From: Actinopolyspora biskrensis
GTDB lineage: Bacteria; Actinomycetota; Actinomycetes; Mycobacteriales; Pseudonocardiaceae
Direction of reading: 5' to 3'
Assembly (NCBI RefSeq): GCF_013408175.1
Contig: NZ_JACBYW010000010.1
Location: 1 to 64,000, forward strand
DNA: 64,000 nucleotides
Position numbers and translations under genes: made by a program. Of the stretch, positions 2,460 to 22,905 are shown one piece after another. The notes beneath the pieces are model-generated. The model saw only the letters and a program-made list of their open reading frames with translations, made no database searches and was not told where the DNA came from. Every line of letters begins with the position of its first letter. Position 1 is the first letter of the stretch.

Positions 2460-3443
2460 TTGCAAACCGCCGTGAATTCCACGACACATCTCGCCGAGGC
2501 TTCCGCCGCGAGTGTGGCCGACCCAGTGGTGAACTGGTTCACCGAGAACTCGGGCGCCTTCGTGTCCGGATTCATCAACGTTCTCATCATCCTGCTCGTG
2601 GCCGTGGTGTTCCGCGCCGTGACGGGGCGGGTGATCACCCACGGTGTCCGGCGGATGGTGAGCTCGCACCAGCGGCTCAACCAGGCCACGTCCAAGGCGG
2701 GGAACCTGGTGACCCGCCAGTCGAACAGCTCCGAGAGCGCTGGCCAGCGCCAGCAGCAGCGCGCGCAGACCATCGGTTCGGTGCTGCGCAGCGTGGCTTC
2801 CTCGGTCATCTTCGGTGTCGCCTTCGTGATGATCCTCGGAGAGTTCGGGATCAATCTCGGTCCGATCCTGGCCAGCGCCGGTGTGCTCGGACTGGCGATC
2901 GGTTTCGGCGCGCAGAGCCTGGTGCAGGACTTCCTGTCCGGCATCTTCATGATGATCGAGGACCAGTACGGCGTGGGGGACGTGGTCGACACCGGTGACG
3001 CGGTCGGAACCGTGGAATCGGTGACCCTGCGGATCACGAAGATCCGCGATCTCAACGGCGGGCTGTGGTACGTCCGCAACGGCGAGATCATGCGCGTGTG
3101 CAACATGAACCAGGACTGGGCGAACGCGGTCGTGGAGATTCCGCTGGATTACAGCGTCGACATCGCCCACGCCGAACGTGTGATCGAATCGGCCATCGAC
3201 GATTTCGCGGCCGAGGACGAGTTCAAGTCCAGGATTCTGGAGAAGCCCGATCTGAGCGGCGTCATCGGCATCGGCAACGGTTCGGTGACCGTGCGCATCA
3301 TCGTCAAGGTCAAGCCGGGCGAGCAGTGGGCGCTGGGACGTGCGCTGCGTGGCCGGCTCAAGAGCCGTTTCGACTCCGAAGGGGTGCGGGTCGCGTACCC
3401 GCTGCTGCCCGGTAACGGGGTCGGTGCGGCCAAGCAGGGCTGA
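2460..3443 (+). CDS. Mechanosensitive ion channel, MscS family
   Basis: About 327 residues. Hydrophobic helices at roughly 30-55 and 105-150 are followed by the MscS pore and beta domain (GFGAQSLVQDFLSGIFMMIEDQYGVGDVV, given here as a region near residues 140-170, then ITKIRDLNGGLWYVRNGEI). The family relieves turgor on hypo-osmotic shock. The TTG at 2460 has GAGAAAGG about 8 bases upstream. An ATG at 2385 in the same frame would add 25 residues of no recognisable character. Between the first and second helices is a polar Gln/Ser-rich stretch (SNSSESAGQRQQQ). It converges on the membrane-protein pair at 3529-4325. Confidence 0.88.
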   Translation: MQTAVNSTTHLAEASAASVADPVVNWFTENSGAFVSGFINVLIILLVAVVFRAVTGRVITHGVRRMVSSHQRLNQATSKAGNLVTRQSNSSESAGQRQQQRAQTIGSVLRSVASSVIFGVAFVMILGEFGINLGPILASAGVLGLAIGFGAQSLVQDFLSGIFMMIEDQYGVGDVVDTGDAVGTVESVTLRITKIRDLNGGLWYVRNGEIMRVCNMNQDWANAVVEIPLDYSVDIAHAERVIESAIDDFAAEDEFKSRILEKPDLSGVIGIGNGSVTVRIIVKVKPGEQWALGRALRGRLKSRFDSEGVRVAYPLLPGNGVGAAKQG

Positions 3444-3464
3444 TTCGGAGTCGGACGTGTCCTC

Positions 3465-3503
3465 CCCGCGGGCCCGGCCGTCCTCCGACGGTCGGGCCGG
3501 GGC
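3465..3503. terminator. Hairpin between convergent genes
   Basis: An imperfect GC-rich inverted repeat (GCCCGGCCG at 3472-3480 against CGGTCGGGC at 3489-3497, extended by CCCCGC/GGGGCGG flanks). It lies between the mscS-type gene and the convergent gene ending at 3529, so it is probably a bidirectional terminator. Confidence 0.5.
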
Positions 3504-3528
3504 GGACGCCGCGACCGGCGCTCTCGGG

Positions 3529-3945
3529 TCAGCTCCGGTCACGGGTCCTGTTGATCCGCAGGATTCCCAGTGCGATCAGCCCGAGCAGAGCTCCCCAGAT
3601 GATGTTGCTCAACACGATGCTGACCATGTTCCCCGCGGGCATGGAGATCTGGCCCACCCCGGCGAAGGCCGACACGGCGCGGTTGAGCACCACCGCGAGG
3701 ACCCCGTAGCCGCCCCCGGTGATCACGAGCGTGAGCAGTGGATGCGGGACGCGGCGAACCACCACCGTCGCCACCCAGCACACCGCTATCAGAGCCGCCA
3801 CCACCAACGGGGTCCACGGCCTGCCGAGCGTCCTGTAGACCCCGAGCATCCCCAGCGCCGGTTGGAGGAGTCCCACCACGGCGAGCACGGCGATGGTGAG
3901 CCAGTGCAGCTGCCCGAAGGTCGACCCGCTGTTCGGACCGGTCAT
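3529..3945 (-). CDS. Small four-helix membrane protein of unknown function
   Basis: 138 residues with four hydrophobic segments (about 16-36, 48-70, 77-100 and 112-132). It ends in a short basic tail (RINRTRDRS). I do not recognise the family. The ATG at 3943-3945 shares one base with the stop of the upstream LapA-like gene (TGATG), so the two are a coupled operon and probably work at the same membrane. The longer frame that continues upstream to 4692 runs across the neighbouring gene and has no hydrophobic or conserved character there, so I rejected it as the start. Confidence 0.7.
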   Translation of the reverse strand: MTGPNSGSTFGQLHWLTIAVLAVVGLLQPALGMLGVYRTLGRPWTPLVVAALIAVCWVATVVVRRVPHPLLTLVITGGGYGVLAVVLNRAVSAFAGVGQISMPAGNMVSIVLSNIIWGALLGLIALGILRINRTRDRS

Positions 3946-4325
3946 CACGACACCTTTCCGCGTTTCTTGCGCTTGCCGCTCCTGCGCAGCTGCATGATCC
4001 GGGCGGCTCCGACCAGGGCGACGAGCAGTCCGCCGATGGCCGCTGCGAACAGCAGGGCCACTCCGAGGGGCAGCGCTCCGCGCACCCCGAGGAAGGTGAC
4101 CGTCACTGCCTGCAGGTTCTGTAGAATGAAGATCAGCAGGATTATGAGGGCGATCGTCGCGACGACAACGGCGGCCCAGGTCCCCGCCGTCCGGGTGTGA
4201 CTCTGTTCCTTCCGCGCTTCCGTTCCTCCGCGGACACTGCTTTCCCCGTCGCCCGGTGGACGCACTTCCGGCTCGTGCTGCCCGTTCTCCCCGTCGTCGG
4301 ACCATCCTCGTGTTTTTTCGGACAT
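3945..4325 (-). CDS. LapA-domain membrane protein (DUF1049)
   Basis: About 126 residues. A charged N-terminal tail of some 50 residues is followed by two membrane helices with the LapA/DUF1049 pattern (ILLIFILQNLQAVTVTFLG, then a second helix GVALLFAAAIGGLLVALVG) and a very basic C-terminus (RRSGKRKKRGK). The founding member takes part in lipopolysaccharide assembly, but actinobacteria lack LPS, so the role here is unknown. I chose MSEKTRG (4325) rather than the ATG at 4352 because it begins the usual charged tail; both are possible. It is first in a two-gene operon. Confidence 0.75.
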   Translation of the reverse strand: MSEKTRGWSDDGENGQHEPEVRPPGDGESSVRGGTEARKEQSHTRTAGTWAAVVVATIALIILLIFILQNLQAVTVTFLGVRGALPLGVALLFAAAIGGLLVALVGAARIMQLRRSGKRKKRGKVS

Positions 4326-12494: not shown

Positions 12495-13304
12495 CTACGC
12501 GACCGCGCTGACCAGTCCCGGGTTCACGAGCAGGACGGTTCCGGCTCCGGCGAGGAGTGCGCCGATCGCGCGACTGGTCCGTCTCGCGTGCGGCAGAACC
12601 TTCTCGACGGTGATGACGGCCGTGACACCCGCCATCCAGACGAGGCTCATCGTCCCGGCCGCCAACAGCACGACCATCAGCGCCCAGCAGCATCCGATGC
12701 AGTAGGCCCCGTGCCCGCAACCGACCAGCAGCGCGCCGCGCCGGCTGCGGACGGCCCGTTGACCGTGCTGGACCAGCAGGGCCATCGGTGAGCGGCAGTG
12801 CGCCAGGCACCACTGCTTCAGCCGGGTGAACTGGAACAGCCCCGCGATCAGCAGCACGATCGCTCCCCAGCGGGCCGCCGTGGTGCTACCGGCCGTGGCC
12901 AGAGAGTCGAAGGCCAGCAGGCACGCGTACGCCAACAACCCCGTCAGGGTCCAGGTGAGCAGGTAGCCGAAGGTCAACGCCGTCACGCTGCCCGTGCCGG
13001 CACGGCGTTGCCGCAGCAGCCTGCTCATGCCGAGGGTGAACGGCGTGATGCCGGGCAGCATCATCGCGGTCATCATGATCATCCATGTGAACAGGAAGAA
13101 TCCCGCTCGTGCCCACTCGATACCGGGCGGGGTCATCGGCCGCGTCCCGGTCAGGATTCCCAACCGCATGCCGGGGGTGGCCAGGCTGTGAGTCAGCAGC
13201 CAGGCCAGCACGGTGAGCGTGAGCAGCGCGGCCGCCAGCAGGAGTTCGGTCCGCGACCACGTGCCGGGCCGCGGGATCCCACGCGACGCGACTCGATTCG
13301 TCAC
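12495..13304 (-). CDS. DUF2182 membrane protein (putative metal-binding)
   Basis: 269 residues with about six to seven helices. DUF2182 landmarks are visible: FTWMIMMTAMMLPGITPF near residue 75-90, LAHCRSPM near 160, and GCGHGAYCIGCCWALM near 190-205, a cysteine/histidine-rich segment taken to bind metal. The GTG at 13304 overlaps the DUF1326 stop (GTGA), so the pair is translationally coupled. DUF2182 and DUF1326 genes are commonly neighbours in bacteria, but the biochemical role is unestablished. An upstream in-frame start at 13412 would lie inside the DUF1326 gene. Confidence 0.85.
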   Translation of the reverse strand: MTNRVASRGIPRPGTWSRTELLLAAALLTLTVLAWLLTHSLATPGMRLGILTGTRPMTPPGIEWARAGFFLFTWMIMMTAMMLPGITPFTLGMSRLLRQRRAGTGSVTALTFGYLLTWTLTGLLAYACLLAFDSLATAGSTTAARWGAIVLLIAGLFQFTRLKQWCLAHCRSPMALLVQHGQRAVRSRRGALLVGCGHGAYCIGCCWALMVVLLAAGTMSLVWMAGVTAVITVEKVLPHARRTSRAIGALLAGAGTVLLVNPGLVSAVA

Positions 13305-13960
13305 GGCGCATCCGGTCCGGACCATTCGAAGGGGATGAGCTTGCTGGAGTAACCGGACCGGTCCCATCGGAACCCGAACGCGTCGGTCCGGTCCGTGACG
13401 GCTCTGCCCCAAACAGCCGGTGGTTGTCCCGGCCCGACCTCCGCGCCGGGCAGGTTGTGGACCTCCACTCGGCTCCCCTCGGAGGTGGTGGGACCGGTCA
13501 GGGCTTCCACGGCCGCTTCGGCCTTACCGGGTATCCGCACGTTCCACCGCGCGAAGTTCTCCTCGAACGAGGCCTCGATGGGGGCGAACTCCATGCCGAG
13601 GATCTCGGGCCGGAACATCGCCCCGAACCGTGCGGGCCAGCCTCCCGCCTCGCCTCCGAAGATCGTCCGCAGGGCCTGCCGCTGGTCCTCGTCGGCGCGT
13701 TCGTCGATGAACACGGCGGCGTACGGGTCCGTGTGGTCGCCGTCCCACACGTTTCCGACGAAGGAGGTGAGCATCACGACGCTGAGTCCGTTCAGCCCGG
13801 TCTCGCCGTAGGTTCCGGTGCGAACGTGCCAGACGAGGATGCCGCTGCAGTCCCCGTACGTCGGGGGCTGGGCGAAAGCGCAGGGGCAGGGGATGGCGCA
13901 CTTGCAGGCGTCGAACCAGACGCCGTCGAGGTGCCAACTCAGGGCGGTCGGAGTAGTCAT
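13301..13960 (-). CDS. DUF1326 domain protein
   Basis: 219 residues, soluble. The N-terminus carries the DUF1326 cysteine cluster WFDACKCAIPCPCAFAQPP (about residues 15-33, four cysteines in a CxC-x3-CxC arrangement), a plausible metal site. The middle has the conserved GLSVVMLTSFVGNVWDGDHTDPYAAVFIDE region. It is first in the operon with DUF2182, to which it is joined by a 4-base overlap. The function is unknown. The 203 bases upstream (13961-14163) hold no gene and must contain its promoter, and the 106-bp duplication begins just beyond. Confidence 0.85.
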   Translation of the reverse strand: MTTPTALSWHLDGVWFDACKCAIPCPCAFAQPPTYGDCSGILVWHVRTGTYGETGLNGLSVVMLTSFVGNVWDGDHTDPYAAVFIDERADEDQRQALRTIFGGEAGGWPARFGAMFRPEILGMEFAPIEASFEENFARWNVRIPGKAEAAVEALTGPTTSEGSRVEVHNLPGAEVGPGQPPAVWGRAVTDRTDAFGFRWDRSGYSSKLIPFEWSGPDAP

Positions 13961-14163: not shown

Positions 14164-14269
14164 TCACTGCTGTGACAGGGCGAGAGCTCCGCCGAGCCCG
14201 ATGAGGGTGGTGCCGCTGGCGGCGTGCTGGCGTCGTTGCCAGCGCGGGTTGTTGGCGAGCCAGGTGCCG
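14164..14269. repeat. Left 106-bp direct repeat (copy of the lysE-type gene 3' end)
   Basis: This segment is identical over 106 bases to 16297-16402, which are the last 106 bases of the lysE-type gene including its stop codon (read on the minus strand). Identity starts exactly at the stop codon. Bases on either side differ (C before TCAC here, T there; GAT after here, AGT there). There is no upstream part of the gene here, so it is a truncated duplicate. Confidence 0.95.
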
Positions 14270-14393
14270 GATGCCGCTTTCGGTACTTTTCCGGAGGAGG
14301 TTTGCCCCTGGGGTCGAGGTGGGGGCGCCACCGGGGAGGAAAAACGGGGAGCGATGCTGCGTCCTCTGGCACGGCGTTGTCTCGCCTAGCTTG

Positions 14394-14409
14394 TCGAACC
14401 CGTGTTCGA
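14394..14409. promoter_or_regulatory. LexA/SOS box upstream of the dprA-like gene
   Basis: TCGAAC-CCGT-GTTCGA is a perfect 6-4-6 palindrome and matches the known actinobacterial LexA (Cheo-type) box TCGAAC-N4-GTTCGA. It lies 128 bp before the chosen dprA start and 53 bp before an alternative start at 14463. This suggests that the cassette is repressed by LexA and induced by DNA damage. Confidence 0.75.
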
Positions 14410-14537
14410 TACTCTGTTTCCGGGGTGGTTGAGGTCCGTGTTCGAAGGCTCGGGAGGTGTCCATGCGCAGTGCTTCACCCGGTTCGGTGGGCCCCTGGGA
14501 AGGGCCGCGCGCTCTCACATCTCCTAGGCTTTCGGGT

Positions 14538-15473
14538 ATGAGCTCCTGGAACGACGAGGAACGAGCGGCATTGGTGGCCCTGTTGCGGGCGCGCCCGGAA
14601 GGGATGTCGTGGCCGACGATCACTTCCGAGGTGGCCGAAGCCGGTAGTGCGCGTGCTGTTCGGGAGCGTTTCGGGACTCTTTCTCCCGGGGATGTTGCCT
14701 TGTTCGAGGTGACCTCGTCGGAGCGCCCTCCGGACGGAGGGCTCGAACGGGCGTTGGAGGACGTCGCCTCCTGGCGTGATGAGGACTTCGATTTCCTCAC
14801 TTTTCAGGACGAGCACTACCCACCCCGTCTTCTCGAGGTGAATCAGGTTCCCCCGTTCGTCTTCGCTCGTGGAAAGCTCGTTCCTGACGAGAGCGCGGTT
14901 TCGGTAGTGGGCTCCCGTGCGGCTTCGGAATACGCTCGTGCGATTACCGCCGATGTTGCCCGCAGACTGTCGGGTGCGGGTTTCACGGTGCTTTCGGGGC
15001 TGGCGAGCGGAATCGATACCGCAGCGCACACTGCCGCGCTCGACAGCGGTGGCCGAACGGTAGCGATCCTCGGAAGCGGTATTCGTCGGGTCTATCCCGC
15101 GGCGAACCGGGAGTTGCAGGAACGGATCGCTCGGGAGGGGCTCGTGCTGTCCCAGTTCTGGCCCGACTCACCTCCGACCAAGCAGAGCTTCCCGATGAGA
15201 AACGCGACGATGAGTGCCTACGGCGTCGCCACGATCGTCGTCGAGGCGGGCGAACACAGTGGGGCACGAATTCAGGCGCGGATGGCTGTCGAGCACGGGC
15301 GTCCGGTGATTCTGATGAAGCCTGTGGCAAGAGGGACCGACTGGGGGGCGCAGCTGTGCGCGCAGCCCGGTGTCTTCGTCGTCGACACTCCGGAGGAGGC
15401 CGTCGGTGTCGCGGAACGGTTGGCCAGTGGTGAACGGGAGGTCTCACGGCTGCTCGCCTTGGCCACGTCGTGA
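14538..15473 (+). CDS. dprA: DNA-processing protein A-like (Smf/DprA, SLOG superfamily)
   Basis: 311 residues. After an N-terminal helical region (WNDEERAALVALLRARPEGMSW) comes the Smf/DprA Rossmann-like domain: FLTFQDEHYPPRLLEV, SVVGSRAAS (about 121-129), SGLASGIDTAAHTAAL (153-168), VAILGSGIRRVYP, then SFPMRNATMSAYGVATIVVEAGEHSGARIQARMAVEHGRPV. Canonical DprA loads RecA on single-stranded DNA during transformation; this copy has no comEA/comEC neighbours. The ATG at 14538 starts at the conserved helix but lacks a ribosome site. The in-frame ATG at 14463 has GGGAGG five bases away and would add 25 residues. The stop overlaps the next gene by 4 bases (GTGA), so the products probably act together, behind an SOS box. 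Confidence 0.85.
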   Translation: MSSWNDEERAALVALLRARPEGMSWPTITSEVAEAGSARAVRERFGTLSPGDVALFEVTSSERPPDGGLERALEDVASWRDEDFDFLTFQDEHYPPRLLEVNQVPPFVFARGKLVPDESAVSVVGSRAASEYARAITADVARRLSGAGFTVLSGLASGIDTAAHTAALDSGGRTVAILGSGIRRVYPAANRELQERIAREGLVLSQFWPDSPPTKQSFPMRNATMSAYGVATIVVEAGEHSGARIQARMAVEHGRPVILMKPVARGTDWGAQLCAQPGVFVVDTPEEAVGVAERLASGEREVSRLLALATS

Positions 15474-16270
15474 CTGACGAGGAAATTCGGACGGAGCTAC
15501 GGCGGCAACTGACCCGTCGGGTGGGCGGGTTCTTCCACAATACGAGGAAGATCCACGGTGTGACCTGTCTGGTGTGTGCTGGACCGGTTTCCTCCAACGA
15601 GGATGTTTGTTCCAGGTGTGCCGGGCATCGTGCGGAGTTCGGTGACCGGCTGGCGGATCGGGTGCTGCTGCTGACGTATGTCCGTGGTCAGCAACCACGG
15701 ACGCAGCACCAGTCGGCGCACACCGTGCGAGCGTACAAGTGGCCCTGGTCACCGGTGGAGAGGTGCCTCAACGATCTGCGGCTGATGGTTTTGGCCGCCA
15801 CCCGTATTCACGCTCGGTGCGTTGCCGAATCAGCGGGACGAATCTGGGATTCGGTGACTTTCGTTCCTTCCAGGAACAGGCCGGGAGCGGAACATCCTGT
15901 TGCCGAGCTGGCACGTCATGTGGCTTTTCGTAATCGGTCCGAGAACCGACTGGTTTTGGAGATCGGCCCGGGATTCGATGCTTCGGAGCGTGTCGTCCGT
16001 ACTGATCAGTTCGTCGTACCGGATGGGTACAGGGAACGTGTGATGGGCAAGCACGTGTTGTTGGTGGACGACACGTGGACTTCGGGAGCGAAGATGCAGT
16101 CGGCGGCTGTGGCGCTCAGTGACGCCGGTGCGGAACAGGTTACGGCGCTGTGCGTGGCCAGGTGGTGTCGACACGATTGGCCGGATCATCGGGAGCTGCT
16201 GGATTCCTGTGCCGAGCCTTATGACGCTTTCGGATGCCCTGTCCTGGGTGAGGGGTGTTCGGTAAGGTGA
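15470..16270 (+). CDS. Zinc-ribbon phosphoribosyltransferase-like protein (ComF-like)
   Basis: 266 residues. An N-terminal zinc ribbon is formed by Cys33, Cys36, Cys47 and Cys50 (CLVC and CSRC). The C-terminal half is a type I phosphoribosyltransferase fold with the PRPP loop VLLVDDTWTSG at 196-206 and a preceding SVTFVPSRNRPG region. This is the ComF-like layout. The GTG at 15470 overlaps the dprA-like stop, indicating strict co-expression. ComF proteins accompany DNA uptake, but here the pairing with a SLOG protein on a repeat-bounded, SOS-box-bearing segment suggests a stress or conflict function. The reaction is unknown. Confidence 0.8.
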   Translation: MTDEEIRTELRRQLTRRVGGFFHNTRKIHGVTCLVCAGPVSSNEDVCSRCAGHRAEFGDRLADRVLLLTYVRGQQPRTQHQSAHTVRAYKWPWSPVERCLNDLRLMVLAATRIHARCVAESAGRIWDSVTFVPSRNRPGAEHPVAELARHVAFRNRSENRLVLEIGPGFDASERVVRTDQFVVPDGYRERVMGKHVLLVDDTWTSGAKMQSAAVALSDAGAEQVTALCVARWCRHDWPDHRELLDSCAEPYDAFGCPVLGEGCSVR

Positions 16271-16296
16271 GCTCGTCGTGTGTTCGCACTCGCGGT

Positions 16297-16402
16297 TCAC
16301 TGCTGTGACAGGGCGAGAGCTCCGCCGAGCCCGATGAGGGTGGTGCCGCTGGCGGCGTGCTGGCGTCGTTGCCAGCGCGGGTTGTTGGCGAGCCAGGTGC
16401 CG
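16297..16402. repeat. Right 106-bp direct repeat (3' end of the lysE-type gene)
   Basis: Identical to 14164-14269. It encodes (minus strand) the last 34 codons and the stop of the lysE-type gene, including GTWLANNPRWQRRQH and GTTLIGLGGALALSQQ. Confidence 0.95.
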
Positions 16403-16925
16403 AGTGAGCCGGCGAAGACGGCCACGAGCAGGTCGGCGGTGGAGGCGAGCACGACGAAGGCCAGCCCGAGGGCGAGGAAGGCGATGCTCTGCGAGCCCCG
16501 TTCGGGGTGCACGAACTGCGGTATGAACGCCAGGAAGAACATCGCCGTCTTCGGGTTGAGCACTTCGGTGACCAGGCCCTGGGTCACCGCGGAGCCGCGC
16601 TGTTCCAGGGACGTCGTCCGCTGCTCCGCGGGTGCGCCGCGCAGTTCCCACAGGGTGCGTGCGCCCAGGTAGACCAGGTAGGCGGCGCCGAGGAACTTGA
16701 CCACGGTGAACGCCAGAGCCGAGGTGGCCAGCAGCGCCGACAGCCCGGCCGTGGCGGCGAGCACGTGCACCGCTGCTCCGAGGAAGGTGCCATGGCCGAG
16801 CGGACCCCTTCGGCCCGGCCGCCGTGCAGGCTGCGGGCGAGCACGTACAGGATCCCGGGGCCGGGGGCGACGGCTATCAGCGTCGCGGCCCCCAGGAAGA
16901 TCCACCATTCGGAGAGGTCCGGCAT
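16297..16925 (-). pseudogene. LysE/RhtB-type amino acid exporter gene with a one-base frameshift
   Basis: The N-terminus MPDLSEWWIFLGAATLIAV, then APGPGILYVLARSLHGGRAEGVRSAM, is read from the ATG at 16925. The body GTFLGAAVHVLAATAG...LNPKTAMFFLAFIPQF...LALSQQ lies in another frame. The switch falls at 16790-16791, where ATGGC should be ATGGGC. Restoring one G gives a normal 209-residue LysE/RhtB exporter with six helices. Either the gene is dead or this is a sequencing error. The 3' end is the source of the 106-bp repeat, so the cassette insertion and the frameshift affect the same gene, although the insertion alone would have left it intact. Confidence 0.8.
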
Positions 16926-18148: not shown

Positions 18149-18895
18149 GCCCGGCTGCTCCGGGGCTCACCAGGAGGTGCTCCGGAGCTCGGACGGCGGC
18201 TACTTTCCGGCGGTTGCGGACACGTCAGGAATCGCAGAAGTTCGATTCCTTCCCGGGGTTGACGAGGCTCGCCAACTGATCCTGGGGTGATGAGCCGCGG
18301 CCTCGGCGCCGAAGCTGGTTTCCCGCAGGTGGGGCGGGATCAGCGGTCAACACCCACGAGGGCCGCGGGGTCCCTCCGGTCCGCTCTCGCCCGGGTCGAC
18401 ACCAGTCTCGTGAAGACGCCTGCAGTGTGCCGCGGCTCCGCGCAGGACGGACGGACGAGCACGTTCACGTTCGTCGAACCTCTTTCGGGCGGAAAGTTCG
18501 GCCGCTGGTTCACCCGCGCCGGCGCGGGTGATCACGTGGACTCCTCTCACGTGCTTGCCGCGGCGGCCGCGTGCCGGACGGTGTTTCCGGACCCGGTGGA
18601 CGGCGGGTGCGGCCTGCGGCTGAGGAGGACGGCAAGGGGAGAACGAGATCTTACCATTCCCGCAGGAACAAAAAGCGTTCCATTAAAGAGATTTCATATA
18701 GAATTCATTTTACTGTCACGAAAATTTTTGAATATCACGCGATCGAGTGTGTTCGATCATTTTTCTTTGTTGGTTCGCGATGTCGCCGATAGTGTGGTGG
18801 CGCCCTGGTGAGTGCAGTAATTCTCACTTGTTCCCCCGTGCTCGTCAATGCCGTCGAGCTTCCTTTTCGTGTCGATTTTGTTGGGAACGGCCAGC
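18149..18895. other. Gene-free region with an AT-rich patch
   Basis: No convincing gene. A frame of 174 codons (18287-18811) has no recognisable domain and runs through the AT-rich part. From about 18640 to 18785 the sequence is strikingly AT-rich for this genome (AAAAAGCG, TTCATATAGAATTCATTTTACTG, GAAAATTTTTGAATAT given here as pieces). Within it is a 6-6-6 inverted repeat GATCGA-N6-TCGATC (18741-18758), a possible operator for the DUF1275 gene. It may be foreign or regulatory DNA. Confidence 0.5.
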
Positions 18896-19642
18896 ATGAG
18901 TACTTCGGCAGCAGGTGCGGACACCGACGCGTCACCGTCCCGGGAGCTGTCCCCCGACAGCGGACTCCCGACGGTTCTCATGGGGTTGACCGTGCTGAGC
19001 GGCATCATCGACGCGGTCAGCTACCTCGGACTCGGACGTCTGTTCCTGGGCAAGATGACCGGCAACGTGGTCGTGCTCGGGCTCTCCACCGCTCAGGTTC
19101 CCGGGTTCTCGGTGACCGTTCCCGTAGCGGCGCTGACGGCTTTCCTGCTGGGAGCTGTGCTGGGCGGGCGGTTGCGAACCGCTCTCGGGCACGCCAGGTT
19201 CCGCTGGGTGAGCTCGGCGTTGACGATCGAGGCGGTCCTGCTGGTCGCCGCTGCAGGAACCGCCGCCGTGACCGGCGCCGACGGTCCCGAACCGACCGAC
19301 CTGGAGATTCTCGTCCTGGTCGTGCTGATGGCCCTGGCCATGGGGCTGCGCAACGCCACCGTGCGCAAGCTCGCGGTCCCGGACCTGACCACGACGCTCA
19401 TCACGCTCACCCTGGCCGACATAGCGGCGGACTGCTTCCTGGCGGGGCGGCGCAATTCACGCCTGAACCGTAGGTTCGGAGCCGTGGTGTCCATCTTCGG
19501 CGGCGCGCTGCTCGGCGGGTACCTCGTGCTCAGGTACGGGCTGCTGCCGCCGTTGGTGGTTGCCGCTGCGCTGGCCACGGCACTGGCCGTCGGTTATCCG
19601 CTGCTGTGGCTGTGGTTCGCCCGCAGGCGCGGTCGTCGCTGA
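18896..19642 (+). CDS. DUF1275 (YoaK-like) membrane protein
   Basis: About 248 residues with six to seven helices. DUF1275 features: VLSGIIDAVSYLGLGRLFLGKMTGNVVVLG near residues 30-60 and MALAMGLRNATVRKLAVPDLTTTLITLTLADIA near 145-175. The family is thought to be a transporter-like membrane group without an assigned substrate. The ATG at 18896 has GGGAACGG upstream; an alternative ATG at 18848 would add 16 hydrophobic residues. An AT-rich upstream patch with an inverted repeat may carry its promoter and operator. No genes overlap it, so it is probably monocistronic. Confidence 0.82.
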   Translation: MSTSAAGADTDASPSRELSPDSGLPTVLMGLTVLSGIIDAVSYLGLGRLFLGKMTGNVVVLGLSTAQVPGFSVTVPVAALTAFLLGAVLGGRLRTALGHARFRWVSSALTIEAVLLVAAAGTAAVTGADGPEPTDLEILVLVVLMALAMGLRNATVRKLAVPDLTTTLITLTLADIAADCFLAGRRNSRLNRRFGAVVSIFGGALLGGYLVLRYGLLPPLVVAAALATALAVGYPLLWLWFARRRGRR

Positions 19643-20711: not shown

Positions 20712-21293
20712 GTGCTGCTCAGTGACCATGACCTGCGTAAAGAGCTCGATGACGGGCGCTTGGAACTCGATCCGTTCGACGACGCGCTGATACAACCATC
20801 GAGCGTCGACGTCCGGCTGGACCGTTTCTTCCGCGTCTTCGACAACTCCAAGTACACCCACATCGACCCCTCGCGGCAGCAGGACGACCTGACCTCGCTC
20901 GTCGAACACTCCGACGACGACGCGTTCGTGCTGCACCCCGGCGAGTTCGTCCTCGGCTCCACCTTCGAGACGGTGCGGCTGCCCGAGGACCTGGCGGGCA
21001 GGCTCGAGGGCAAGTCCTCCCTGGGACGGCTCGGTCTGTTGACCCATTCGACGGCCGGTTTCATCGACCCCGGGTTCGGTGGGCACATCACCCTCGAACT
21101 GTCCAACGTCGCGAATCTGCCCATCACCCTCTGGCCGGGCATGAAGATAGGGCAGCTGTGCCTGTTCCGCCTGTCCAGCCCGGCCGAGCACCCGTACGGC
21201 AGCAAAGCGGCCGGTTCACGATACCAGGGACAGCGCGGCCCCACCCCCTCACGCGCATATCTCAACTTCGTAAGGGTTGACACCAGTAGGTGA
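20712..21293 (+). CDS. dcd: dCTP deaminase (probably dUMP-forming)
   Basis: 193 residues, the usual length of Dcd. The N-terminus [16 protein letters not shown], the nucleotide-binding/catalytic block [29 protein letters not shown] (about residues 96-124) and the tail [13 protein letters not shown] are diagnostic. The catalytic Glu follows in HITLELSN. It deaminates dCTP; actinobacterial enzymes such as the mycobacterial one also hydrolyse dUTP to dUMP, supplying thymidylate synthesis. The GTG at 20712 is chosen because family members start at the LLSD segment; a GTG two codons earlier (20706) is possible. It is divergent from tRNA-Gly by 79 bp. Confidence 0.95.
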
Positions 21294-21501
21294 ACACGAT
21301 CGAGACCGAGTCGTTAGTCGTTCAGATGCAGCTCGCGTCGATTCAGCAACGTATGGTGTCTGAATGCGTCACAGTGGTCAGCATCACACTGAATCGTGGA
21401 AGTCAAGCGGGATGGATGTGACTTACGTTGTCGCGTAACCCGTCGTTAACGAGCGGTGTGCGAAATGGCACACCGGCGAACGGGGGCACAGGAGAACTTC
21501 G

Positions 21502-22905
21502 ATGTCGGTAGATCAGACGAGAGGTCGTTCCACCGATCACCTGGCACACGTGGTGATGATCGCCGGGGCGGCTGCCCTGGGTGGCTTTCTGTTCGGTTAT
21601 GACACTTCGGTCATCAACGGTGCGGTGCAGGCCATCCAGGACAACTTCGCCGTCGGCGCGGCGCTTACCGGCGTCACCGTCGCCGCGGCTCTGCTGGGTT
21701 CGGCTGTGGGAGCGGCCATAGCAGGTGGCATAGCGGACAGACTCGGCCGCACTCGGGTCATGCAGGTGGCGGCCGCGCTGTTCATCATCAGCGCCATCGG
21801 TTCGGCGCTGCCGTTCACCATTTGGGATCTGGCCATGTGGCGAATAGTCGGCGGCGTCGCCGTCGGTATCGCCTCCATGATCGGTCCGGCCTACATCGCC
21901 GAGGTGGCCCCGGCCGAGTACCGCGGACGACTCGGTTCGTTGCAGCAGCTCGCGATCGTGCTGGGAATCGCGGTTTCCCAGCTGGTCAACTACGCCCTCG
22001 CCTCCGCGGCGGGAGGCAGTGCCTCGGCCCAGCTGGGCCCGTTGGACACCTGGCAGTGGATGCTGGCGGTTGAGGCCGTCCCCGCGTTGATCTACCTGAT
22101 CCTCGCCACGATCATCCCCGAATCCCCGCGCTACCTCGTCTCCGCGGGCAAGACCGAACTCGCCCGCAAGGTGCTGCGCCGCATCGAGTCGGCCGACGCG
22201 GACGAGAAGATCAAGGAGATCCGGGACGCCCTCGGCGGCGAGCAGAAACCGAGGCTCAGCGACCTGCGCGGAAGGTTCGGTCTGCTCCCCATCGTGTGGG
22301 TCGGCATGGCCATCGCCGCGCTGCAGCAGTTCGTCGGCATCAACGTCATCTTCTACTACTCCTCCTCGCTGTGGCAGTCCGTCGGCGTGGAGGAGAGCAA
22401 CTCGCTGCTGCTGAGCCTGTTCACCTCCATCGTCAACATCGTCGGCACGATCGTCGCGATCATGCTGGTCGACAAGATCGGCCGCAAGCCGCTGCTCGTG
22501 ATGGGCTCGACCGGTATGACGATCGCGCTGGCGATCACCGGGTGGGCGTTCAGCTACGCCGAGGTCAGCGGCGACCAGGCCAACCTGCCGTTCGCCTGGG
22601 GCGTGGTGGCGCTGCTCTCCGCCAGTACCTTCGTGTTCTGCTTCGCCGCTTCCTGGGGTGTCGTGATGTGGGTGCTGCTCGGCGAGATGTTCCCGCCCCG
22701 CATCCGTGCCGCGGCGCTCGCCATCGGCACCGCCACGAACTGGGTGGCGAACTGGTTGGTCACCGTGACGTTCCCGAGCATGAACGCCTGGAACCTCCCG
22801 GCGACCTACTTCATCTACGCGGCGTTCGCGTTGATCTCGCTGTTCTTCGTGGTGCGCTACCTCAAGGAGACCAAGGGGCGCTCGCTGGAGGAGATGGGCA
22901 GCTGA
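21502..22905 (+). CDS. MFS sugar porter (glucose/xylose:proton symporter type)
   Basis: 467 residues, 12 helices. Sugar-porter signatures: GGFLFGYDTSVINGAV (about 28-43), the DRLGRTR loop (about 77), PESPRYLVSAGK (about 205), QQFVGINVIFYYS in helix 7 (sugar binding), DKIGRKPLL (about 330) and a C-terminal KETKGRSLEEM. It resembles the actinobacterial GlcP group and probably imports glucose or a similar hexose with a proton. The ATG at 21502 follows GGAGAA at 21491-21496. It stands alone. The 208 bp upstream show no gene, and two hairpins follow it. Confidence 0.88.
   Translation: MSVDQTRGRSTDHLAHVVMIAGAAALGGFLFGYDTSVINGAVQAIQDNFAVGAALTGVTVAAALLGSAVGAAIAGGIADRLGRTRVMQVAAALFIISAIGSALPFTIWDLAMWRIVGGVAVGIASMIGPAYIAEVAPAEYRGRLGSLQQLAIVLGIAVSQLVNYALASAAGGSASAQLGPLDTWQWMLAVEAVPALIYLILATIIPESPRYLVSAGKTELARKVLRRIESADADEKIKEIRDALGGEQKPRLSDLRGRFGLLPIVWVGMAIAALQQFVGINVIFYYSSSLWQSVGVEESNSLLLSLFTSIVNIVGTIVAIMLVDKIGRKPLLVMGSTGMTIALAITGWAFSYAEVSGDQANLPFAWGVVALLSASTFVFCFAASWGVVMWVLLGEMFPPRIRAAALAIGTATNWVANWLVTVTFPSMNAWNLPATYFIYAAFALISLFFVVRYLKETKGRSLEEMGS

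Follow-up and report, generated by a model that had tools for sequence, protein, structure and literature searches.

A DprA-like and phosphoribosyltransferase gene pair with a predicted LexA operator at a fixed locus in Actinopolyspora

The window analyzed here is a stretch of 64,000 nucleotides of Actinopolyspora biskrensis DNA (assembly GCF_013408175.1, contig NZ_JACBYW010000010.1, positions 1 to 64,000). It contains a two-gene unit in which a dprA-like gene is followed by a gene for a phosphoribosyltransferase (PRTase; prt), with a predicted LexA operator upstream and a 106-bp direct repeat on either side (Table 1). A DprA-like gene of the same family, meaning the family group as defined by the genome search tool, occupies the same locus in all ten Actinopolyspora genomes compared (G000 to G009, with A. 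biskrensis as G000). The PRTase reading frame is open in four of them (G000, G003, G005 and G009) and broken or missing in the other six (G001, G002, G004, G006, G007 and G008); relatives of the PRTase include those of Actinopolyspora mortivallis, A. xinjiangensis and A. alba. The locus of the pair is ancestral in the genus and fixed at one place.

Table 1. Coordinates of the features discussed, numbered from the first letter of the window
Feature	Position	Strand	Remarks
Predicted LexA operator (SOS box), TCGAACCCGTGTTCGA	14394..14409	+	ends 128 bp before the dprA ATG
-10-like hexamer TACTCT	14410..14415	+	abuts the SOS box
dprA-like gene	14538..15473	+	311 residues; DprA/SLOG core; proposed antitoxin and DNA sensor
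PRTase gene	15470..16270	+	266 residues; CxxC...CxxC and phosphoribosyl pyrophosphate (PRPP) loop DDTWTSG; proposed toxin/effector
Left 106-bp repeat	14164..14269		shortened copy of the 3' end of lysE, with orthologs in G003 and G008
Right 106-bp repeat	16297..16402		3' end of the lysE-type gene
lysE-type exporter gene	16297..16925	-	PF01810; adjoins the pair in G000, G003, G006 and G008 only
DUF1326 gene (13301-13960; PF07040) and overlapping neighbor (12495-13412)	12495..13960	-	synteny

The DprA-like protein, for which an alternative in-frame GTG start lies at 14457, matched PF02481 (2e-58), the PADLOC profile for ShosA (PDLC03961, 1.1e-58) and PsyrA (1.5e-26), and missed the curated cut-off for canonical DprA (TIGR00732; 170.7 vs 191.15 bits). 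Its structure model (predicted local distance difference test score, pLDDT, 93.6) had its best fold match in the DprA structure 3maj (Z 31.4), and it aligned with ShosA (8zva) over 280 residues (Z 27.6; root-mean-square deviation, rmsd, 3.7). The ShosA profile also matched 41 of 41 selected relatives; intact members were selected for the PADLOC profiles, 40 of the 66 listed DprA-like proteins and 48 of the 63 listed PRTases, each set being completed by the protein of the window. By profile, by its relatives and by fold, the protein is a ShosA homolog and a putative antitoxin of the DprA/SLOG type. A second DprA-family gene lies elsewhere in the genome (C2:27809), its product being 41% identical over 181 residues.

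For the PRTase, Pfam found a phosphoribosyltransferase (PRT) domain only. The protein fell below the ComF cut-off (TIGR00201; 27.6 vs 233.55 bits), a strict threshold that just 2 of 14 control genomes pass; the ComF-like gene that A. biskrensis has at another place (C4:515366) is also below it, at 43.8 bits. Its match to ShosT was weak (21 bits, a profile hit over residues 189-235), and the ShosT profile PDLC03962 matched 43 of the 49 selected PRTases. In these 49 sequences C33, C36, C47, C50, D201, T202 and G206 are invariant. The model (pLDDT 95.5) resembled ComFC 7p0h (Z 10.2, rmsd 3.6, 167 residues aligned) and ShosT 8zvd (Z 9.5, rmsd 4.4, 180 residues aligned, from ShosT residue ~148 on), so that ComFC is the nominal top match in predicted fold, tied with ShosT; Foldseek alone gave modest template modeling scores, and the Z values come from a second structural comparison. 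Sequence and model together suggest the architecture of ComFC, a four-cysteine ribbon joined to a PRT fold with a PRPP loop. The PRTase is not fused to a RecQ-type helicase, and only the PRTase end of PsyrT was matched (636-683 of 689).

The predicted operator upstream of dprA is a perfect TCGAAC-N4-GTTCGA; the genome has three such sites in all, and one match to the reversed pattern used as a control. The consensus reported for Streptomyces LexA is tCGAAC-N4-GNNCGa (PMC9380542). LexA is encoded in the genome, and its own recA and lexA promoters each carry a box with one mismatch, so the box upstream of dprA is closer to the consensus than either. As a side feature, the profile match of the A. 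biskrensis recA gene (C1:75599-77653) falls into two parts (1-202 and 196-321), ~1.07 kb apart in a single open frame of 784 residues; the insertion is probably an intein. Across the genus the box is perfect in seven of the ten genomes, and in 7/7 of these the motif TANNCT follows directly on its 3' side; the three genomes lacking it are G002, G004 and G007, in which prt is absent or a fragment. A consensus operator in the putative promoter would place the pair in the LexA regulon.

We observed the same box in a wider sample. Thirty family loci, taken from the 58 genomes in which a PRTase was matched, were scanned over 350 bp; the best box was perfect in 13 of them, had one mismatch in 6, two in 5 and four or more in 6. 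A second set, which overlaps the first in part (some species are in both), comprised 72 of 80 named actinobacterial loci, 7 being left out for want of an upstream dprA and one because it was cut at the N terminus. Here, 17 loci had a perfect box, 28 a box with at most one mismatch, and 38 one with at most two, where 14,400 random windows from the same loci predict 0, 0.6 and 3.6, respectively. Permuted half-sites (179 in all) reached at most 2 loci with up to one mismatch and 6 with up to two, and when spacers of 0-8 were scanned, only a spacer of 4 gave more than one locus at one mismatch or fewer. LexA regulation of the pair, as predicted from these sites, is well supported in the genus and in about half of the wider set. 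LexA control of a DprA-PRTase pair was not found in the literature searched, mostly open papers, which is no proof of absence. The main text of the paper on the S. venezuelae LexA regulon has no mention of DprA, 'DNA processing' or phosphoribosyl. The pair would thus be an actinobacterial variant, under LexA control, of the known DprA-PRTase kind.

The two genes keep close company. A DprA-like gene precedes prt in 30 of 30 family loci examined and, in the named actinobacterial set, lies at most 1.7 kb upstream on the same strand in 73 of 80. Five loci of this family group (L229-L233) belong to a DprA subfamily with lower scores and have a weak PRTase-domain match ~580-690 bp downstream. Gene loss was followed in 56 family genomes found through dprA (E <= 1e-50, seven candidates scored per genome), which remained from 70 loci after leaving out G110, at a contig end, and 13 lower-scoring DprA hits (G030, G043, G083, G111, G149, G157, G181, G287 and G291, and second copies in G072, G076, G103 and G210). 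In two of these 13 (G157 and the second copy of G072) dprA is broken and no prt was found. PRTases matched only from about model position 28-40 onward (G049, G103, G193 and G231) were counted as intact. On this basis, 14 of the 56 genomes have a broken prt or none (the six of the genus named above, and G017, G038, G047, G072, G076, G081, G155 and G201), and dprA is broken in two (G002 and G161). Genomes that had lost just one of the genes numbered 13 for prt and one for dprA (exact two-sided p about 0.002, a value that ignores shared ancestry). A costly effector whose partner is retained would be expected to leave just such an excess of prt losses. Both genes are under purifying selection: the ratio of nonsynonymous to synonymous substitution rates (dN/dS) was 0.12-0.28 for both in all pairs compared, except for one near-identical dprA pair at 0.39. 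Given these low values, prt seems to have been broken only recently in G006 and G008.

The one purpose of searching phages and plasmids was to learn whether the family occurs on mobile elements, and it does. In the Gordonia phages Vasanti (L243 3051-4738) and Bosnia (L244 3099-4756), a DprA-like gene is directly followed by a PRTase gene, and both phages have an integrase gene, which adjoins the pair in Bosnia and lies six genes from it in Vasanti. A box with one mismatch is found 27 bp upstream in Vasanti, and none in Bosnia (best site, 5 mismatches). As evidence of a role in phage defense, the presence of the pair in these two phages is circumstantial. Eleven plasmid records match the PRTase, and in eight the match covers 80% or more of the protein; a Pseudonocardia plasmid serves as an example with both genes and a one-mismatch box. 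ShosTA in Actinobacteria has been reported as tending to be plasmid-encoded (PMC10482375). The family travels at a larger scale, yet in Actinopolyspora it is fixed at one place.

Among known systems, the pair appears from sequence and models to resemble ShosTA, here with a ComFC-like PRTase. ShosTA consists of the DprA-like antitoxin ShosA and the PRTase toxin ShosT (solved structures 8zva, 9vzo, 8zvb-8zvd, 9w2p and 9w2q), with the same two partner folds and the genes side by side; solved ShosA and ShosT chains came up in the profile searches as well as in the fold comparisons. According to a review, ShosT is both a PRTase and a pyrophosphatase and upsets purine metabolism, and ShosA binds DNA (PMC12593503). 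The solved ShosT chain has 432 residues, whereas the PRTase here has 266 and an extra N-terminal CxxC...CxxC ribbon; a LexA box is predicted for our pair, the comparison with E. coli ShosTA being one of proteins. A DprA-PRTase pair of P2-like phages is reported to protect against T7 and lambda (PMC9122126); it too has two genes, for DprA and a PRTase, and belongs with a family carried by phages, but that system is from E. coli P2-like phages and ours has a fixed chromosomal place in a genus of actinobacteria, the two being likened by gene content. In PsyrTA/RqlHI, the PRTase domain of RqlH is reported to be genotoxic and the DprA-like RqlI to restrain it and to be protective (PMC4670107). The likeness lies in a DprA-like antitoxin facing a toxic PRTase domain, with the PsyrA match given above; the toxin there, however, is a RecQ-like helicase fused to the PRTase.

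We think it reasonably probable that the pair is a LexA-controlled defense operon of the toxin-antitoxin type, related to ShosTA. In an undamaged cell, LexA bound to the box that abuts the -10-like element would keep expression of the operon low. Phage attack or another insult would produce single-stranded DNA (ssDNA), which would lead to RecA-driven cleavage of LexA and to release of the operon. The DprA-like protein, encoded first and expected by homology to bind ssDNA, would restrain the PRTase. The latter, an enzyme of predicted ComFC fold, may act on PRPP or nucleotides, by analogy with ShosT and RqlH, and would be harmful when unrestrained. An infection that overwhelmed or diverted the DprA partner would then free the PRTase, and the cell would stop or die. 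The original prediction, made from the letters of the window alone, had suggested that the pair serves conflict or stress rather than ordinary competence, and this is supported by the ShosA match, by the DprA and ComF scores below their cut-offs and by the additional DprA-family and ComF-like genes.

Several observations weigh against this interpretation. The similarity of the PRTase to ShosT in sequence is weak, and ComFC is nominally its best fold, tied with ShosT. A perfect box is kept beside a broken prt in G001, G006 and G008. No box with two or fewer mismatches was found at 34 of the 72 named pairs, including every Bifidobacterium, Mycobacterium/Mycolicibacterium and Streptomyces locus in that set; LexA control is therefore not universal. 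The excess of prt losses could mean dispensability rather than toxicity, some of the breaks may be sequencing errors, and the losses in G002, G004 and G007 may represent one common event. Ascertainment through dprA favors genomes in which dprA is intact. A large bias is argued against by the fact that 54 of the 58 genomes in which a PRTase was matched were reached through dprA as well; the four exceptions are G020 (a fragment) and G032, G142 and G170 (weak matches). Finally, in G004 and G007, where dprA is an orphan, the gene seems to remain under constraint (dN/dS 0.26) and may therefore have a role of its own.

This last point is shared by the strongest alternative, which we consider rather improbable: the pair would be an SOS-induced unit for handling ssDNA and for recombination in repair, or in rare DNA uptake, in which DprA loads RecA and a ComFC-type partner protects or delivers ssDNA, and no toxin is involved. 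LexA control suits a repair role, and LexA sites have been predicted at dprA and recA in Dinoroseobacter (PMC6473078). The pair also resembles ComFC with canonical DprA, the partners of natural transformation, in its four-cysteine ribbon, PRT fold and DprA partner, with 7p0h as nominal top fold; ComFC is reported to have a zinc finger and a PRT domain, to bind ssDNA and, in two species, to interact with DprA (PMC9005727). The DprA-like gene of G004 and G007, moreover, persists without prt. A repair pair is, however, at odds with the 13-to-1 bias toward loss of prt, which also sets the family apart from ComFC and canonical DprA, and with the carriage of the family by phages and plasmids. Both proteins score below the DprA and ComF cut-offs while the ShosA match stands at 1.1e-58, and the genome has, outside this locus, a further DprA-family gene and a ComF-like gene. 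These same cut-offs and separate genes disfavor a canonical competence pair; comEA and comEC were not searched for.

A defense operon, our preferred reading, leaves the repeats to be accounted for. The two copies are identical at 106 of 106 positions and match at only two places in the whole 4.95-Mb genome. Much of what had been predicted from the window was borne out: exact direct repeats, of which the left is a truncated duplicate of the 3' end of lysE, enclose two genes with a 4-base overlap and carry no integrase, since of the 2,027 bp between them 1,733 are taken up by the genes and only 268 and 26 bp remain. The lower guanine-plus-cytosine (GC) content noted for the pair was found as well (0.632, with 0.689 for the remainder of a 22-kb stretch), but the window has still lower values elsewhere (0.584 at 18500-18999 and 0.596 at 21250-21749). 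In the seven genus genomes measured, the pair had a GC content of 0.627-0.670 and its surroundings 0.659-0.689; with so small a gap and with other low-GC places in the window, the case for a recent arrival from low GC is weak.

Neighboring genes differ within the genus. To the right of dprA lie lysE and a GNAT gene in G000, G003, G006 and G008, and two genes including DUF1326 in the other six genomes, G004 having two further genes between dprA and this pair. In G000 the DUF1326 gene and its partner lie to the left of dprA-prt instead, a local rearrangement relative to the six, as if circularly permuted; no DUF1326 gene was detected at any place in the genomes of G003, G006 and G008. The left flank was followed with an out-of-frame reading frame overlapping a phosphoesterase-like gene (named by appearance), which serves as a position marker only and is unmatched in G007 and G008. 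The lysE of G000 is frameshifted near its 5' end relative to the open frame in G003, G006 and G008, through a sequencing error or a real break. About 5 kb downstream of the pair, a direct duplication of ~540-590 bp is present in G008 (80% identical; L091 15712-16899) and G003 (73%; L086 about 2891-4185, coordinates on the opposite orientation).

G000, G003 and G008 carry a lysE tail on the left, and none turned up in G006; in total, seven of the ten genomes lack the left repeat. Within a genome the copies differ at 0/106 (G000), 0/75 (G003) and 4/106 (G008) positions, and between these genomes at 4/75 to 11/106. Bases private to one genome occur in both of its own copies, at positions 5, 22 and 34 in G003 and 10, 34 and 70 in G008. 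The copies evolve in concert within a genome and therefore recombine. The left repeat as an assembly artefact, which the original prediction had named as a way in which it could fail, is disfavored by the orthologous left copies of G003 and G008, two other species, with lineage-specific bases common to both copies. The repeat starts at the lysE stop codon in all three genomes, and the inner boundary of the left copy is common to G000 and G008 to ~1 base. The simplest account, on the evidence of these alignments, would be a single ancestral duplication of the lysE tail, after which gene conversion repeatedly evened out the two copies. Recombination of the RecA type between the repeats could on rare occasions pop the pair out, but no such event was seen. 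The flanking repeats are not needed for the function of the pair.

Two other origins of the repeats have very little probability. The first is a tandem duplication of a dprA-prt-lysE-tail unit with later loss of the left genes, which would suit the common inner boundary in G000 and G008 and recalls a review's statement that ShosT, when active, causes DNA to be duplicated (PMC12593503, citing Pu et al. 2025). Any tie to ShosT is speculative, the DNA to the left of the repeat yielded no trace of a second dprA or prt, and the outer boundary at the lysE stop codon is left unexplained. The second and least probable, already largely refuted, is a mobile island, of the small and possibly excisable kind originally proposed, here taken to have integrated into the 3' end of lysE, regenerated lysE and left the repeats as attachment sites: exact repeats at a gene 3' end enclosing a putative promoter and both genes, the lower GC of the pair and relatives on phages and plasmids speak for it, and against it stand the lack of room for an integrase, the absence of an empty site in any of the ten genus genomes, a dprA-like gene that has no adjoining lysE in six of them and lysE without the left repeat in one, and repeat copies that are most like their partner in the same genome. 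Relatives carrying both genes without a repeat had been named as the finding that would count against an island, and this was largely observed for the dprA-like gene, though not for the PRTase in the six genomes where it is missing or broken. As a caution, a unit of two genes that stays at one locus can come to be flanked by exact repeats through local duplication and gene conversion.

A bolder reading, which we consider rather improbable, is a widespread actinobacterial module that ties the SOS response directly to a suicidal enzyme acting on nucleotides. When DNA is damaged or a phage replicates, LexA would arm a pair of the DprA-ComFC type, and the occupancy of DprA by ssDNA may decide between recombinational repair and release of the PRTase. 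Such a module would form an evolutionary bridge from the DprA-ComFC pair of competence to DprA-PRTase toxin-antitoxin defense. If the preferred reading as a LexA-controlled defense operon is right, a defense or suicide module would be licensed by the repressor of DNA repair, and DNA damage caused by a phage would raise the module in step with RecA.

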